NCBI RefSeq assembly: GCF_007197755.1 | Contig: NZ_CP041636.1 | Location: 434,001 to 498,000 of the forward strand | Length of the DNA stretch: 64,000 bases | Source of the DNA: Ferrovibrio terrae | GTDB taxonomy: Bacteria; Pseudomonadota; Alphaproteobacteria; Ferrovibrionales; Ferrovibrionaceae | Reading direction: 5' to 3' | In this document: piece by piece, positions 29,013-34,538 of the stretch | How the letters are laid out: each line of letters starts with the position of its first letter | Numbering within the stretch: the stretch's first letter is position 1 | Notes under the pieces: model-generated | Seen by the model: the letters and a program-made list of their open reading frames with translations, nothing else | Database searches by the model: none | What the model was told of the DNA's origin: nothing | Program-made: the position numbers and the translations under genes

Positions 29013-29064
29013 CCTGACTTTGCCATAATCGCCCGACATCCTATGTTTGCACATGAAGGCAGAC

Positions 29065-29859
29065 ATGACATTCCGCACCCGCTCCCTGATCCGCAATCTC
29101 CTGCTCGCTGTCGGCGCGCTGATCGCACTGCCGCTGATGGCCAGCGGCGCCTCCATCGCCACGGCCGAGCGCAAGCACTGGTCGACCTCGCGCTGGGACA
29201 GTGCCGGGCTGGCGCCCGATCCGGTCACCGTCAAAGACGCGGTCATCCAGGTCTATGCCGCCCGCGTCTGGGGCTGGCGCGGCGCGTTTGCCGTCCATAC
29301 CTGGATCGTGGTCAAACCGGCCGGCGCACCCTCCTACACCCGCTATGAGGTGGTCGGCTGGGGCGGCGCCCCGGTGCGGATCAGCAACCGCACGCCCGAC
29401 GGCTACTGGGCCGGCAATGCGCCCGAACTTCTGCATGACCTGCGCGGGCCGACCGCCGCCGCCGCCATCCCGCTGCTGATCTCGGCCGCCGAACGCTATC
29501 CCGGCCGCGAAGGCTATGTGATGTGGCCCGGGCCCAACTCGAACAGTTTCGTGGCCTATCTGGCCCGCGAGGTGCCCGAACTGGGCCTCGAACTGCCGCC
29601 CACCGCGGTCGGCAAGGACTGGCTGGGCGCCACGACCGTGTTTGCCCCAGCCCCCAGCGGCACCGGCTACCAGATCAACCTGTTCGGCCTGGCCGGGGTG
29701 ACGGCCGCGGCCCGCGAGGGGCTGGAGCTCAACCTGCTGGGCCTGACCATCGGCGTCGACCTGCTCCGCCCCGCGCTCAAGCTGCCCGGCATCGGCCGCA
29801 TCGGCCTGCCGACCACCTCGGCGGTCGCCGAGACCAAATCCCCCATAAGTAACCAGTAG
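29065..29859 (+). CDS. DUF3750 family exported protein
   Basis: About 264 residues with an N-terminal hydrophobic signal or anchor (RSLIRNLLLAVGALIALPLM). The core VIQVYAARVWGWRGAFAVHT and YTRYEVVGWGG, then YVMWPGPNSNSFVAYLAREV, fits the DUF3750 family, predicted periplasmic and functionally unknown. The conserved His, Trp and Asn residues hint at an enzyme, but this is inference. The ATG at 29065 has AAGG five bases upstream; ATG 29053 and TTG 29047 in the same frame are alternatives. It precedes the DUF692 gene by 129 bases. Confidence 0.75.
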   Translation: MTFRTRSLIRNLLLAVGALIALPLMASGASIATAERKHWSTSRWDSAGLAPDPVTVKDAVIQVYAARVWGWRGAFAVHTWIVVKPAGAPSYTRYEVVGWGGAPVRISNRTPDGYWAGNAPELLHDLRGPTAAAAIPLLISAAERYPGREGYVMWPGPNSNSFVAYLAREVPELGLELPPTAVGKDWLGATTVFAPAPSGTGYQINLFGLAGVTAAAREGLELNLLGLTIGVDLLRPALKLPGIGRIGLPTTSAVAETKSPISNQ

Positions 29860-29988
29860 TTGCGGACTTCTGCCGCAAGATCGCGGCGGGTGTTTTTCCA
29901 CAGGCGGTGCTACAGTGTCCGGGACAGGCGCGAGCTGGCAGGCCCGCGCTGCGACGCGAACAATCTGACGAGTGTGCATCCGGTCGCC

Positions 29989-30963
29989 ATGACGGAGCAG
30001 AAACCCATTGCCGCGCCGGGGCGGCGTTCCTCCCCGGCCGCCGATCTCCGGACTGACGGAATTCCCGCGGCCGAACGGGTCGGCATTGGCCTGCGTCCGC
30101 CGCATCATGAAGACCTGCTCGACAGCCGCCCGCCGCTGGGCTGGCTGGAAATCCATGCCGAAACCTATATGGGCGGCGGTGCGGCCCGGCATTACCTGGA
30201 GCAGGCGCGCGCGCTCTGGCCCGTCGCCGTGCAAGGCACCGGGCTGGGCCTGGGTGGCGAGGAACTGCCCGATCCCGATCACCTCGACCGGTTGGCCCGG
30301 CTGGTCGACTGGCTGCAGCCGGCGCTGGTGTCGGAACACCTCGCCTGGGTCGGCGTCGAGGGCCGGTATTACAATGACCTGCTGCCCCTGCCCTACACAC
30401 TCCAGACACTGGAAAGCTGCCGCCGCAATGTCGATATCGTACAGGCGCGGCTGAACCGCCCGATCCTGATGGCCAATCCGGCCGGCTACCTGCGTTTCCG
30501 CGAAAGCCAGATCGCCGAGGCGGAATTCCTCAGCCGGCTCAGCGAGCAGAGCGGCTGCGGCATCCTGTGCGACGTCAACAACCTCTATGTCTCCAGCGTC
30601 AACCATGTCGGCCGCGAAGCCGCACCCGCCGTGGCGGAAGCCTATCTCGACAGCCTGCCGGGTCCGGCGGTGCACCAGATCCGCATCGCCGGCCACAGCG
30701 AAAGCGAGACCGACGGCAAGCTGATGCTGATCGACGATCATGGCGCGCTGGTGGCCGAACCGGTCTGGCGGCTTTATGCGAGTGCCGTGCAGCGCTTCCC
30801 GCATGCCGCCACCTCACTGGAATGGGATGCCAATCTGCCGCCGCTAGCGCATCTGATCGCCGAGGCGCAGCATGCCGAGCGCCAGCGCGCCGCAGCGCTC
30901 AGGCCGAGCGCCCTGCCGAATGATCCTTCAGAAGAAACGGGCGGCGATGAGCGCGCTGCTTGA
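29989..30963 (+). CDS. DUF692 (MNIO-family) protein with altered metal-site residues
   Basis: A 324-residue TIM-barrel protein of the DUF692/UPF0276 family, multinuclear non-haem iron oxidases that modify cysteines in ribosomal peptides (MbnB, TglH, BufB/HvfB). Conserved blocks: GIGLRPPHH (32-40), LEIHAETYM (53-61), VSEHLAW (114-120), NDLLPLPYT (129-137), DVNNLYVSSVNH (195-206), IDDHG (248-252) and EWD. Three usually invariant positions differ: His to Gln82 (AVQGTGLGLGG), Glu to Ala162 (LMANPAGYL), and His to Arg232 (QIRIAGH). At least some are iron ligands in characterised members, so the iron site is probably incomplete. It overlaps the DUF2063 gene by 17 bases. Confidence 0.88.
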   Translation: MTEQKPIAAPGRRSSPAADLRTDGIPAAERVGIGLRPPHHEDLLDSRPPLGWLEIHAETYMGGGAARHYLEQARALWPVAVQGTGLGLGGEELPDPDHLDRLARLVDWLQPALVSEHLAWVGVEGRYYNDLLPLPYTLQTLESCRRNVDIVQARLNRPILMANPAGYLRFRESQIAEAEFLSRLSEQSGCGILCDVNNLYVSSVNHVGREAAPAVAEAYLDSLPGPAVHQIRIAGHSESETDGKLMLIDDHGALVAEPVWRLYASAVQRFPHAATSLEWDANLPPLAHLIAEAQHAERQRAAALRPSALPNDPSEETGGDERAA

Positions 30964-31699
30964 ACGCCAGCGCGAATTCGCCGATGCGCTGACCGGCTCG
31001 CTGTATGGCATTGCCGAGAAGGTGATCGGCGATGCAATTCCGGCCGAGGGCCGCCTGCAGATTTATGCCGACCGCTTCCGCGCCAGTCTGCTGGACGTGC
31101 TGGCCAACACCTTCCCGGTGACGCGCGGGCTGGTCGGCGAGGCCTTTTTCGCACAGACCGCACGCGCCTTTCTGATCTTCGATCCGCCGCGCTCACCGAT
31201 CCTCTGGCAGTATGGCCACGGTTTCCCGACATTTCTCGCCGCATTACCCGATCTGGGCGGTCACCAGTATCTGCCCGACATCGCCGCCTTTGAATGGGCG
31301 CTGAATGTCGCCGAACATGCCGAGGATGTGGACCTGCTGCGGGCAGAAGACCTGCCCGATGCCATCGAGACGATGACATTCACATTACATCCTTCGGCGC
31401 AGCGGCTTTCCACGCCCTTCCCGATCAGCGAAATCTGGCAGGTGCATCAACCGGAATCACCGGCGGTCGAGCGCATCCAGCTGGCCGGCGGCGGCGAACG
31501 CCTGCTGGTCTGGCGTCGCGGTATCAAGGTCTGCTGGCACAAGCTGCAGCACGGCGAAGACCGCCTGCTGGCCGAACTGGCCGACGGCATCCCGCTGGAG
31601 GCGGCGATGCAGGCAGCCAGCGTGCATGAGGATTTCGATTTTCCCGCCAGCTTCAGCTGGATGCTGGATGGTGGGATTTTCGCGCGGCCTGCTGTTTAA
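30947..31699 (+). CDS. DUF2063 (HvfC/BufC-like) partner protein
   Basis: A 250-residue protein with the DUF2063 N-terminal domain (LLERQREFADALTGS, RLQIYADRFRASLLDVLANT, FPVTRGLVGEAFFAQTARAF, WQYGHGFPTFLAALP and YLPDIAAFEWALN) and a less conserved C-terminal half. DUF2063 proteins are substrate-peptide recognition partners of DUF692 enzymes. The ATG at 30947 lies inside the end of the DUF692 gene, indicating coupled translation. Usually a short DUF2282 or similar precursor accompanies the pair; none is seen here. Confidence 0.87.
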   Translation: MSALLERQREFADALTGSLYGIAEKVIGDAIPAEGRLQIYADRFRASLLDVLANTFPVTRGLVGEAFFAQTARAFLIFDPPRSPILWQYGHGFPTFLAALPDLGGHQYLPDIAAFEWALNVAEHAEDVDLLRAEDLPDAIETMTFTLHPSAQRLSTPFPISEIWQVHQPESPAVERIQLAGGGERLLVWRRGIKVCWHKLQHGEDRLLAELADGIPLEAAMQAASVHEDFDFPASFSWMLDGGIFARPAV

Positions 31700-31702
31700 A
31701 GC

Positions 31703-32980
31703 CTAGTCCAGCCACGCATAAGACGCCGCCAGCATCGCCTCCACGCCGGTGCGCAAAGTCGGATGCAGCATCGGCGCGTAGAAGGGCGAGTGATTGACCG
31801 GCATCACGCTCGGATCCTCGCCATTCTGCACGCGGGCGAACAGCTCGGGATCGGTGCCGCCGATCACCCAGAAGACCGACGGCACATTCCACGCTGTGCC
31901 GAACAGGCCGAAATCCTCGCTGCCAGAGGCCGGCTCCACCGTCACCACGCGTTCGGCGCCGAAGAAGGCCCCAATACCTTCCATGGTGCGCTGGGTGGCG
32001 GCTTCGTCGTTCACGGTGAGCGGGAACTGGCTGATCACCGAATATTCCGGCGGCTTGGGTGCGCCCGACGCCTGTGCCTCGGAATCGATAATCCGCTTGA
32101 CCGAAGCCAGCACGCGCTGGCGCACGTTTTCTTTGAAGGTGCGGATATTGAGACGCAGCAGCGCTTCATCCGGAATCACATTCTCGTTGAAGCCGCTCTG
32201 CAGCGTGCCGACAGTGACGACTGCGCTGTCAGCCATCGCCACTTCGCGCGATACGACGGTCTGCAGGCGCATCACGGTGGAGGCTGCCATCACCACGGGA
32301 TCGATGCTGTTCTGCGGCTTCGAGCCATGCGCGCCACGGCCGAACAGTTTCACCTCCCAGCTGTCGGCCGCCGACATGGCAACGCCAGACTTGTAGCCGA
32401 TGGTGCCGGCCGGCATCGGGATCACATGCTGGCCCAGCGACACCGTCGGCTTGGGGAACCGCTTCACCATGCCGTCTTCGAGCATGGCGCGTGCGCCGGC
32501 GCCGATCTCTTCGGCGGGCTGGAACACCGCCATCACGGTGCCCTTCCAGGTGTCGCGATTTTCCGACAGCAGGCGACCGACGGCCATCAACCAGGTGACG
32601 TGGAAGTCGTGGCCGCAGGCATGCATGATCGACACCGACTGACCAAAGCGGTCCACGCCGGTCTGCGCGCTGGCATAGTCGAGATCGGTCTTTTCCTTGA
32701 CCGGCAGGCCATCCATATCGGCGCGCAGCAGGATCACCGGTCCGTCGCCATTTTTCAGCAGCGCCACCACGCCGGTCTTGCCAATTTTCTCATGCACCTC
32801 GAAGCCGTGTTTCTTCATCCAGGCGGCGGCAATGCCGGCCGTGCGCACTTCCTGCATCGAGAGTTCGGGATTCTGGTGCAGATCGATGTAGATCGTCTCC
32901 AGTTCCGGCATCAGCGCGTCGATCTTCTTGAAGATCGCGGCCTTGTCGGGTGAAAGAGTACGGTGCCGGGGTGCGTGCAT
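31703..32980 (-). CDS. M20 family metal-dependent amidohydrolase
   Basis: A 425-residue zinc hydrolase of the M20D type, which removes acyl groups or hydrolyses amides of amino acids (hippuricase/IAA-amino acid hydrolase-like). LHQNPELSMQE near residue 34 and the metal motifs RADMDGLPVKE, HACGHDFHV and FQPAEEIGAGARAMLEDG are clear, with the dimerisation domain in the middle and GSEDFGLFG near the end. The cytoplasmic substrate cannot be told. It ends 3 bases from the convergent DUF2063 gene. Confidence 0.9.
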   Translation of the reverse strand: MHAPRHRTLSPDKAAIFKKIDALMPELETIYIDLHQNPELSMQEVRTAGIAAAWMKKHGFEVHEKIGKTGVVALLKNGDGPVILLRADMDGLPVKEKTDLDYASAQTGVDRFGQSVSIMHACGHDFHVTWLMAVGRLLSENRDTWKGTVMAVFQPAEEIGAGARAMLEDGMVKRFPKPTVSLGQHVIPMPAGTIGYKSGVAMSAADSWEVKLFGRGAHGSKPQNSIDPVVMAASTVMRLQTVVSREVAMADSAVVTVGTLQSGFNENVIPDEALLRLNIRTFKENVRQRVLASVKRIIDSEAQASGAPKPPEYSVISQFPLTVNDEAATQRTMEGIGAFFGAERVVTVEPASGSEDFGLFGTAWNVPSVFWVIGGTDPELFARVQNGEDPSVMPVNHSPFYAPMLHPTLRTGVEAMLAASYAWLD

Positions 32981-33007: not shown

Positions 33008-33286
33008 TTAGGCATAGGATTGAAACTGCGGCACGCTGCCGGCGCGCAGGCGCGGCAGGCCGCATTTCGGTGCATCGGGATCGGCCTCGATCTCGCCGAG
33101 CAGAACGAGGATTTCCTGACCGATGCGCATCGCGTCAGACGACGGCAGGGCGTCGGGATTTTCGACAAGGGCGAGGAGATCGAGAATGCGCTGCTGGCGC
33201 TGGTAGCGGCGGCGGATCGCGGCCGCCTGATCGTCAGGCATGTCGATCAGGTCCACATCCGGCGGCAATTCGCAGCGGTCGCACAT
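33008..33286 (-). CDS. Small hypothetical protein with CxxC
   Basis: A 92-residue acidic protein opening MCDRCELPPDVDLIDMPDDQ; the CxxC at residues 2-5 and a further Cys near residue 76 (PKCGLPRLR) could bind metal. The middle is helical. I do not recognise it. The ATG at 33286 is chosen because a consensus-like -10 box TATAAT ends 7 bases before it; a longer frame exists upstream but would span that promoter. It precedes the M20 gene by 27 bases on the same strand and may be its operon partner. Confidence 0.6.
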   Translation of the reverse strand: MCDRCELPPDVDLIDMPDDQAAAIRRRYQRQQRILDLLALVENPDALPSSDAMRIGQEILVLLGEIEADPDAPKCGLPRLRAGSVPQFQSYA

Positions 33287-33293
33287 GCGGAGA

Positions 33294-33324
33294 ATTATAG
33301 ACCCGGTTGGGCCATAGGGGTCAA
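33294..33324 (-). promoter_or_regulatory. Sigma-70-like promoter of the small CxxC gene
   Basis: On the minus strand TTGACC (33319-33324) and a perfect TATAAT (33294-33299) are separated by 19 bases, slightly long. The TATAAT ends 7 bases before the ATG at 33286, so the transcript would begin at or next to the start codon, that is, leaderless. Confidence 0.5.
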
Positions 33325-34538
33325 CGCGCCTGTAGACCTTTGCCGGTGCGGACCAATGCCAGTGGACCAATCAGCGCACCCAGGCCCATCACGGCCAGGC
33401 CGATACCCCAGGTCACCACCGTCTGTTCACCAGCCACATATTGCGCCGCATCCAGGGCGAAGCCCACAAACAGCGGCCCCAGCACCGACACGCCGAAGCC
33501 CAGCGAGGAATGCAGCGCCATGGTCGAGGCGCGGTGTTCGGGCTCGGCGGCCGCCATCATGCCCGAGGTGAGCGAGCCGGAATCGCCGCAGACAAAGACG
33601 AAATAGATGGCGCAGAACAGCAGCACCGCCCAGACCGGCAACCAGGCGGTGAAGCCGAACAGCAGCCCCATCATGGCCGAGATGGTCATGATCGTGATCA
33701 CCACACGGCGACGGCCGAAGCGCAGCGCCAGTTCATTGCCCAGCAGGCTGGCCGGCAGGCCGATCAGGGTGACCAGCGCGGCCAACACGGTTGCGCTGGG
33801 CAGCAGGCTGGCCACTGACGGCTCGCGCGCCAGCACGAAAACCAGGAAGGCCGTCACCCAGGCGCGCATGGCGGTGAGTTCAAAGCCATGCGCGGCATAG
33901 CCGATGATGTAGCCCATGGCATCGCGGTTGCGCAGCACCGGCCGCAGTGCGAAGCCGCTGGCCGGCTTGCCGGCCGACGATGGCTGGTAAGGCGTGAGGA
34001 TGCGCCAGGCCAGCAGCCCGGCAGCGAGGCTGAGCAGTCCCACCACGGCAAAGCTCCAGCGCCAGCCGTACCATTCGGCCAGCAGGCCGGTGACGCTGAA
34101 GCTGGCGGCCACGGCAATGGAATAACTCGCGGTGTAGAAGGTGACGGCACGGCTCTGTTCGCCGCCCTGCAGCCGGTCGGTCAGCGCACGCAGGCCGGGC
34201 ATATAGACGGCAGCCTGTCCGACGCCGCCGATAGCACGCAACAACAGGCCGGACCAGAAGCCGTCGGCCAGCACCGCAAATCCCACGGTGCTGATGCCGG
34301 TGAGCACCGCGCCGGCGGCAAAGACCAGGCGGGCATCGAAGCGGTCGGTCAGCATCACCGCATGGGTGACCACCAGCATGTAGCCGAGATAGTAGATGCC
34401 CGCGATCCAGCCGGCCTCGGTGTTGCTTAAGGACCAGATGGCGATGAAATCCGGCATCAGGGCGGGAAAGCTGGCAATCGGCAGAATGGCCAGCACTTCG
34501 AGCGCGGCCAGCATAAAAATCAGGTTACGGGACGACAT
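33321..34538 (-). CDS. MFS transporter
   Basis: A 405-residue membrane protein with about twelve hydrophobic segments. It has the A-like loop between helices 2 and 3 (MLTDRFDARLVFAAG), family-typical small-residue helices (GVGQAAVYMPGLRALTDRLQ) and a cationic loop LRFGRRRVVITIM in the second half. It is a single-component secondary carrier of unknown substrate. It is divergent from a Tat-exported hydrolase over 142 bases; that gap contains the imperfect dyad TTTCG-N6-CGAAA near 34553. Confidence 0.9.
   Translation of the reverse strand: MSSRNLIFMLAALEVLAILPIASFPALMPDFIAIWSLSNTEAGWIAGIYYLGYMLVVTHAVMLTDRFDARLVFAAGAVLTGISTVGFAVLADGFWSGLLLRAIGGVGQAAVYMPGLRALTDRLQGGEQSRAVTFYTASYSIAVAASFSVTGLLAEWYGWRWSFAVVGLLSLAAGLLAWRILTPYQPSSAGKPASGFALRPVLRNRDAMGYIIGYAAHGFELTAMRAWVTAFLVFVLAREPSVASLLPSATVLAALVTLIGLPASLLGNELALRFGRRRVVITIMTISAMMGLLFGFTAWLPVWAVLLFCAIYFVFVCGDSGSLTSGMMAAAEPEHRASTMALHSSLGFGVSVLGPLFVGFALDAAQYVAGEQTVVTWGIGLAVMGLGALIGPLALVRTGKGLQAR

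Follow-up and report, generated by a model that had tools for sequence, protein, structure and literature searches.

MNIOs form a large, newly described family that is treated as iron oxidases in the papers cited here, on excerpts of which we draw throughout. In TglH, Fe1 and Fe2 are held by His71, His107, Glu151, Asp184, His216 and Glu258, and Fe3 by Asp184, Asn187, Asp229 and His231; His71 is a ligand of Fe1, Glu151 bridges Fe1 and Fe2, and Asp184 bridges Fe2 and Fe3 (PMC10880893). For VcMbnB, the ligand list reads His55, His91, Glu135, Asp165, Asn168, His194, Asp209 and Glu238, Glu135 acting as the bridge; His211 is assigned to Fe3. Single mutants of this enzyme lost activity or were impaired in protein level (PMC8888699). 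Likewise, TglH E151A gave no product and H71A none by mass spectrometry (PMC10880893). In HvfBC, the partner protein is required for reaching the active mixed-valent state (PMC13419390). Here, we examined an MNIO gene of Ferrovibrio terrae, located at positions 29989-30963 of a 64,000-nucleotide stretch of contig NZ_CP041636.1 (the window), in whose product three of nine iron ligands are replaced. We judge this protein, with a probability of roughly 0.7, to be a retained pseudoenzyme without canonical diiron chemistry.

Results

The gene and its ligand positions are as follows.

29989..30963, + strand: BufB-like protein of the MNIO/DUF692 family in which other residues stand for three of the nine iron ligands; open reading frame of 324 amino acids plus stop
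30232..30234, + strand: codon CAA, encoding Gln82 at the position of the Fe1 ligand His (TglH His71, VcMbnB His55)
30337..30339, + strand: His117, ligand kept (TglH His107)
30472..30474, + strand: codon GCC, encoding Ala162 at the position of the Glu that bridges Fe1 and Fe2 (TglH Glu151, VcMbnB Glu135)
30571..30582, + strand: Asp195 to Asn198, ligands kept (TglH Asp184, Asn187)
30682..30684, + strand: codon CGC, encoding Arg232 at the position of an iron ligand His (TglH His216, VcMbnB His194)
30733..30741, + strand: Asp249 and His251, site-3 ligands kept (TglH Asp229, His231)
30820..30822, + strand: Glu278, ligand kept (TglH Glu258)

The product falls into PF05114 (E 2.4e-84; 283.1 bits against a Pfam cut-off of 25), and its best NCBIfam model is MNIO_BufB NF050167, at 302.5 bits, which is under the equivalog cut-off of 310. 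Its start codon is matched by the aligned starts in all four other species found to have the same three replacements (together with the window's species, the carriers). The original prediction, made from the letters of the window, had held that Gln82, Ala162 and Arg232 stand where the family has conserved residues and had taken at least the first two positions for those of iron ligands in MbnB-type enzymes; the codons CAA, GCC and CGC are indeed read within this open reading frame, and all three positions map to ligands of TglH and MbnB. Its statement that the other family blocks are intact fails for the first of them, HAEN having become HAET, as Thr59 stands for the conserved Asn of the HAENY motif. 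Residues 56 and 236, which it had also listed for mapping, have no place in the published ligand sets: an intact sister orthologue has Tyr for His236, and one carrier has Pro for His56. This last change in the HAEN-type motif was seen only in carrier G001 (L033/L003).

Alignments to chains of solved structures place Ala162 at Glu151/Glu135 and Arg232 at His216/His194, while Gln82 aligns with His60 of 3bww, the His of HGxSLS. The printed TglH alignment starts later than this residue; judged by order, motif and location at the end of a barrel strand, the position of Gln82 is that of TglH His71. The AlphaFold2 model is a barrel (pLDDT 88.8, pTM 0.85) in which residues 82, 117, 162, 195, 232 and 278 are placed at or beside the ends of strands 79-82, 113-117, 160-162, 191-195, 228-233 and 274-277, and a Foldseek search with it returned TglH as the best match (8hi7, E 7.8e-18), with 3bww and MbnB, followed by endonuclease IV. 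By homology, the three lost residues thus correspond to iron ligands that the structures and mutants of TglH and MbnB have identified. The diiron set (His, His, bridging Glu, Asp, His, Glu) is incomplete, reading Q82, H117, A162, D195, R232 and E278, and the site-3 set (D195, N198, D249, H251) is complete in all five carriers. We take His107 to serve Fe1 and His216 to serve Fe2, an assignment that leans on endonuclease IV. An emptying of iron site 1 and no other was dropped as a reading, as Glu151 bridges Fe1 and Fe2 and one His belongs to site 2; the loss is better read as affecting the ligands of Fe1 and Fe2 alike.

The Q/A/R pattern is rare. In a first alignment, H/E/H stands at the three positions in all 33 non-carrier rows (one gene being present twice, as L009 and L036), and in a second, of 50 MNIO rows, the complete set HHEDNHDHE is found in 45 of 45 non-carrier rows and QHADNRDHE in the five carriers. 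A second locus set (n = 130) combined every match in 299 genomes from the phylum of the window, the window genome's own two excepted, with 17 of the further matches among relatives; it contained 124 complete sets, one HHENNHDHE and five fragments. Merging gave 173 distinct genes with nine readable positions, nearly confined to Pseudomonadota, of which 167 are complete, five carry Q/A/R and one has a single change. The three positions are H/E/H in 168 of these 173, the exceptions being the window gene and four orthologues, all from the genus Ferrovibrio; these are the homologues with the same triad for which the original prediction had proposed a search. It had also named what would speak against it, namely that the positions are not ligands or commonly vary, and both the TglH/MbnB mapping and the 173-gene survey contradict this; common variation at the three positions is ruled out by the latter. 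Sequencing or assembly error was likewise rejected, the triad being present in the assemblies of five species, one of them a single-contig genome. Of the 75 positions at which 90% or more of the 33 rows agree, three and no others differ in every carrier yet hold the family residue in both intact sisters; each of these is an iron ligand (chance 0.0012).

Some single observations came out of these surveys. The gene with one change, L246 (G140:C266:1561-2304), is a diverged MNIO of about 30% identity whose only ligand change is from the Asp184 equivalent to Asn, separate from the Q/A/R pattern. Fragment L234 has Ser at the place of Asn198 and ends before the last three ligands, and in L043, from a metagenome-assembled genome of a Baikal gammaproteobacterium, the MNIO matches as two overlapping pieces in different frames. 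Relatives on plasmids (349 records, compared by identity alone) all lie below 60% identity. As for the literature, no ligand-less MNIO is told of in the titles and abstract openings of the open-licence papers retrieved on MNIO, bufferins and MNIO/MbnB structures, and the excerpts of PMC12452194, PMC12636315 and PMC13097082 hold no statement on one; we regard this silence as weak evidence of absence.

The genes around the MNIO are these.

29047..29859, + strand: DUF3750 gene, which adjoins the pair on its upstream side in the seven genomes of the genus with an MNIO found at this locus
30947..31699, + strand: DUF2063 and RRE-type partner (BufC/HvfC-like), whose start overlaps the MNIO gene; PF09836 E 8.3e-23
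31703..32980, - strand: M20 peptidase-family gene, which together with 33008-33370 occupies the place of DoxX in sister G003

Five of ten genomes of the genus have the Q/A/R gene, the MNIO of the other four carriers being 78-92% identical to that of the window. Two have an intact orthologue (G003 and G007), 60-64% identical, at the same locus beside DUF3750, with the same partner and nine of nine ligands. In the remaining three, G006 has DUF3750 without MNIO, the contig of G004 ends near DUF3750, and G009 (72% complete) gave no match. The locus of G007 runs DUF3750, DUF2282 precursor, MNIO, DUF2063, DoxX, a complete bufferin cluster, with DUF3750 directly upstream of it (L049, 4686-8022). G003 has no precursor between DUF3750 and MNIO; its ligands and DoxX are present and its lipase-MFS neighbours match those of the window. 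This locus (L048, 5052-8054) reads MNIO-DUF2063-DoxX with all ligands and with two conserved motifs that differ (DIGN, AGY), and possibly represents an intermediate stage.

The carriers have neither precursor nor DoxX at the locus, and MNIO and DUF2063 partner remain. The gap between DUF3750 and MNIO measures 129 nt in the window and 125-139 nt in the other four; tblastn found no trace of the G007 precursor in these gaps, and a bufA relic upstream of MNIO was rejected, with no match outside G007 better than E 0.35. Within this gap, 29880-29930 seems by eye better conserved among carriers than its surroundings. No promoter or terminator signal above shuffles was found in 29700-31900. A DUF2282-MNIO-DUF2063 cluster with nine of nine ligands is present elsewhere in all five carriers. 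A genome-wide search of the window's genome, made for DUF2282 among the precursor families, gave a sole match, at genome position 858983-859144, about 0.4 Mb away.

The carriers form one clade with support of 100/100 both in the MNIO tree, from which the three changed columns were excluded, and in a species tree of four markers. Seven of the 43 loci (six second copies of genes already included, and L043) and the separate query row were omitted from the former, and from the latter the PriA of G004, which is in several pieces. This places a single breakage of the ligand set on the stem of a clade of five Ferrovibrio species. Faster evolution on that stem was rejected as an explanation, the MNIO stem of 0.31 changes per column being close to that of the four markers (0.35). 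Since G003 and G007 are sisters in the species tree (100/99), the precursor losses in G003 and in the carriers may be two events.

Since then, the gene has been kept. The five orthologues contain no stops or frame breaks inside the MNIO, where a simulated neutral reading frame gains a mean of 2.4 stops once it has 0.1 changes per site and a mean of 4.8 once it has 0.22. The ratio of nonsynonymous to synonymous substitution rates (dN/dS) of the MNIO core is 0.05-0.16 among the five; at similar dS, the canonical BufB of these genomes has 0.21-0.39. In four genomes (G008 is excluded because its partner gene is cut by a contig end), mean dN/dS is 0.13 for the MNIO and 0.06 for the partner (range 0.03-0.09), compared with 0.07 for PriA, 0.14 for XerC, 0.12 for DUF484, 0.12 for DUF3750 and 0.09 for M20, and with 0.40, 0.29 and 0.33 for canonical BufA, BufB and BufC. 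The MNIO and its partner therefore fall in the range of neighbouring genes, and about 2 and 5 times below BufB and BufC from the intact clusters of these genomes. Branch paths leading from the window's species to G005/G008 agree, at 0.11/0.21 for the MNIO, 0.14/0.26 for the markers and 0.29/0.51 for canonical BufB. The ligand-stripped pair is more constrained than the ligand-bearing one, and part of this contrast is accounted for by the fast evolution of the canonical cluster. We observed such fast evolution in the canonical bufferin genes L056, L057, L058 and L062, the precursor included (mean dN/dS 0.29-0.40).

Synteny and purifying selection across five species, both read from sequence, indicate retention. 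They leave little room for the pair being a decaying relic that has lost its substrate and is on its way out. The missing precursor and DoxX and the His56 to Pro change in one carrier would suit such a fate; the undisrupted MNIO in five species and the low dN/dS of both genes, lower than in the active pair, do not, and we disfavour it as the least probable of the explanations considered.

The partner scores 62.5 bits against NF050145 HvfC, under the cut-off of 142, and searching its sequence against solved structures found no relative (best E 0.71). Its AlphaFold2 model (pLDDT 91) has NGO1945 (3dee) and TglI (8hi7) as best matches in the fold search; on the models, both halves of an MNIO-partner complex are physically plausible. 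It could also be that the partner alone is functional, for example in DNA binding, which was once suggested for NGO1945, with the MNIO as only a stabilising subunit. In keeping with this, constraint is stronger on the partner than on the MNIO, Pfam describes DUF2063 as putative DNA-binding, and a structure paper suggested a role in transcription (PMC2954202). However, DUF2063-RRE proteins, NGO1945 and TglI included, are now described as MNIO partners (PMC12452194), and the core positions of the barrel are conserved too. We hold this explanation, which overlaps with that of a pseudoenzyme, to be quite unlikely.

Discussion

In this study, we found an MNIO of bufferin-maturase descent that is kept with its DUF2063-RRE partner under purifying selection in spite of broken iron sites. 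Pseudoenzymes generally keep fold and partner, lose catalytic residues and remain under purifying selection. As far as its sequence tells, the window gene appears to follow this pattern, with catalytic residues lost and the gene kept under purifying selection. The original prediction had offered either a retained pseudoenzyme or a member with a rebuilt metal site; ligand loss, synteny and purifying selection support that pair of options, and sequence does not tell the two apart. With the bridging Glu and two His gone, a mixed-valent state is unlikely in this protein, and it probably no longer performs the mixed-valent diiron cysteine oxidation known from HvfB and MbnB.

Several points weigh against a pseudoenzyme. 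TglH H71A retained some formate activity in vitro and H216A made product on co-expression (PMC10880893), so that loss of a single ligand is not always lethal, though that of Glu151 was. With the four site-3 ligands, His117 and Glu278 all in place, metal binding is possible. Finally, Gln82 has been kept through a synonymous CAA/CAG change, whereas Ala162 is GCC and Arg232 CGC throughout the five carriers; without a codon change, constraint on these two new residues is not demonstrable, and five sequences are too few to reveal special constraint on the kept ligands.

The tolerated single mutants of TglH (PMC10880893) lend something to the view that residual or substrate-assisted canonical activity persists, with Gln82 and water replacing ligands and a bufferin still modified slowly. 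In the window's MNIO, however, three ligands are gone together, including the bridging Glu whose loss in TglH left no product, and its VcMbnB equivalent is essential or affects protein level (PMC8888699). We consider such activity very unlikely.

Another explanation starts from the kept residues: site 3, Glu278 and His117 would hold one metal in a rebuilt, probably mononuclear enzyme with different, perhaps non-oxidative chemistry. It draws on the presence of the six remaining ligands in all five carriers, on the strong constraint after ligand loss and on the fold search, in which endonuclease IV and sugar epimerases also proved similar to the barrel. These enzymes use other metal sets. Yet the five agree at 212 of the 270 core positions in any case, which makes six of six kept ligands weak evidence, and Arg232 would bring a positive charge beside the metal position. 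Moreover, the site-3 residues of HvfB are required although no iron was found there in the active state (PMC13419390), which suggests a need for them other than iron binding in that state. A rebuilt site is unlikely in our view, if less so than any of the other alternatives to a pseudoenzyme.

Under the favoured reading of a retained pseudoenzyme, the pair might now work by binding, a role we propose tentatively and at somewhat less than even odds. A canonical cluster kept elsewhere in all carriers and a single DUF2282 match favour such a role. The RRE of the partner and the barrel would hold a signal-peptide-bearing precursor without modifying it, the first candidate being the sole DUF2282 bufferin that the genome search returned, some 0.4 Mb from the pair. 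In this way the pair could act as a holdase, a sequestering competitor or a regulator that controls the active BufBC pair allosterically. As for Arg232, it probably sits where the iron was and there neutralises Asp195 and Glu278. The steps from a missing diiron site to bufferin binding are ones that we infer. More tentatively still, this could be the first MNIO pseudoenzyme lineage, in which a bufferin maturase, its catalytic iron site and own substrate gone, turned into a non-catalytic regulator or holdase for precursors of ribosomally synthesized and post-translationally modified peptides, working with its RRE partner and selected more strongly than the working maturase.

A clade with lost ligands and a tightly held pair separates the binding role of MNIO and RRE from the chemistry. 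Within one genus, a single locus offers a natural series of a complete cluster, a precursor-less pair with intact ligands and a ligand-less pair. For genome mining, it calls for caution, as not every MNIO gene need be an active maturase.

Comparison with known systems

The window pair shares with BufB (NF050167) and BufC the Pfam family, the gene order MNIO-DUF2063 and an intact orthologue in the full DUF2282 cluster of G007. Unlike BufB/BufC, it has three ligands replaced, no adjacent precursor, no DoxX and a score below the equivalog cut-off. With HvfB/HvfC (oxazolin), TglH/TglI and MbnB/MbnC, six of the nine ligands are held in common, and the models match such structures (3bww, 8hi7, 7dz9, 7fc0 and 7tcr for the MNIO; 3dee and 8hi7 for the partner); in these three systems, as far as the excerpted papers describe them, the diiron set is complete and needed, unlike in the window's MNIO. 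The nearest comparison is with the orthologues in G007 and G003, which differ from the window's gene in having nine of nine ligands and a DoxX gene and, in G007, also a DUF2282 precursor.
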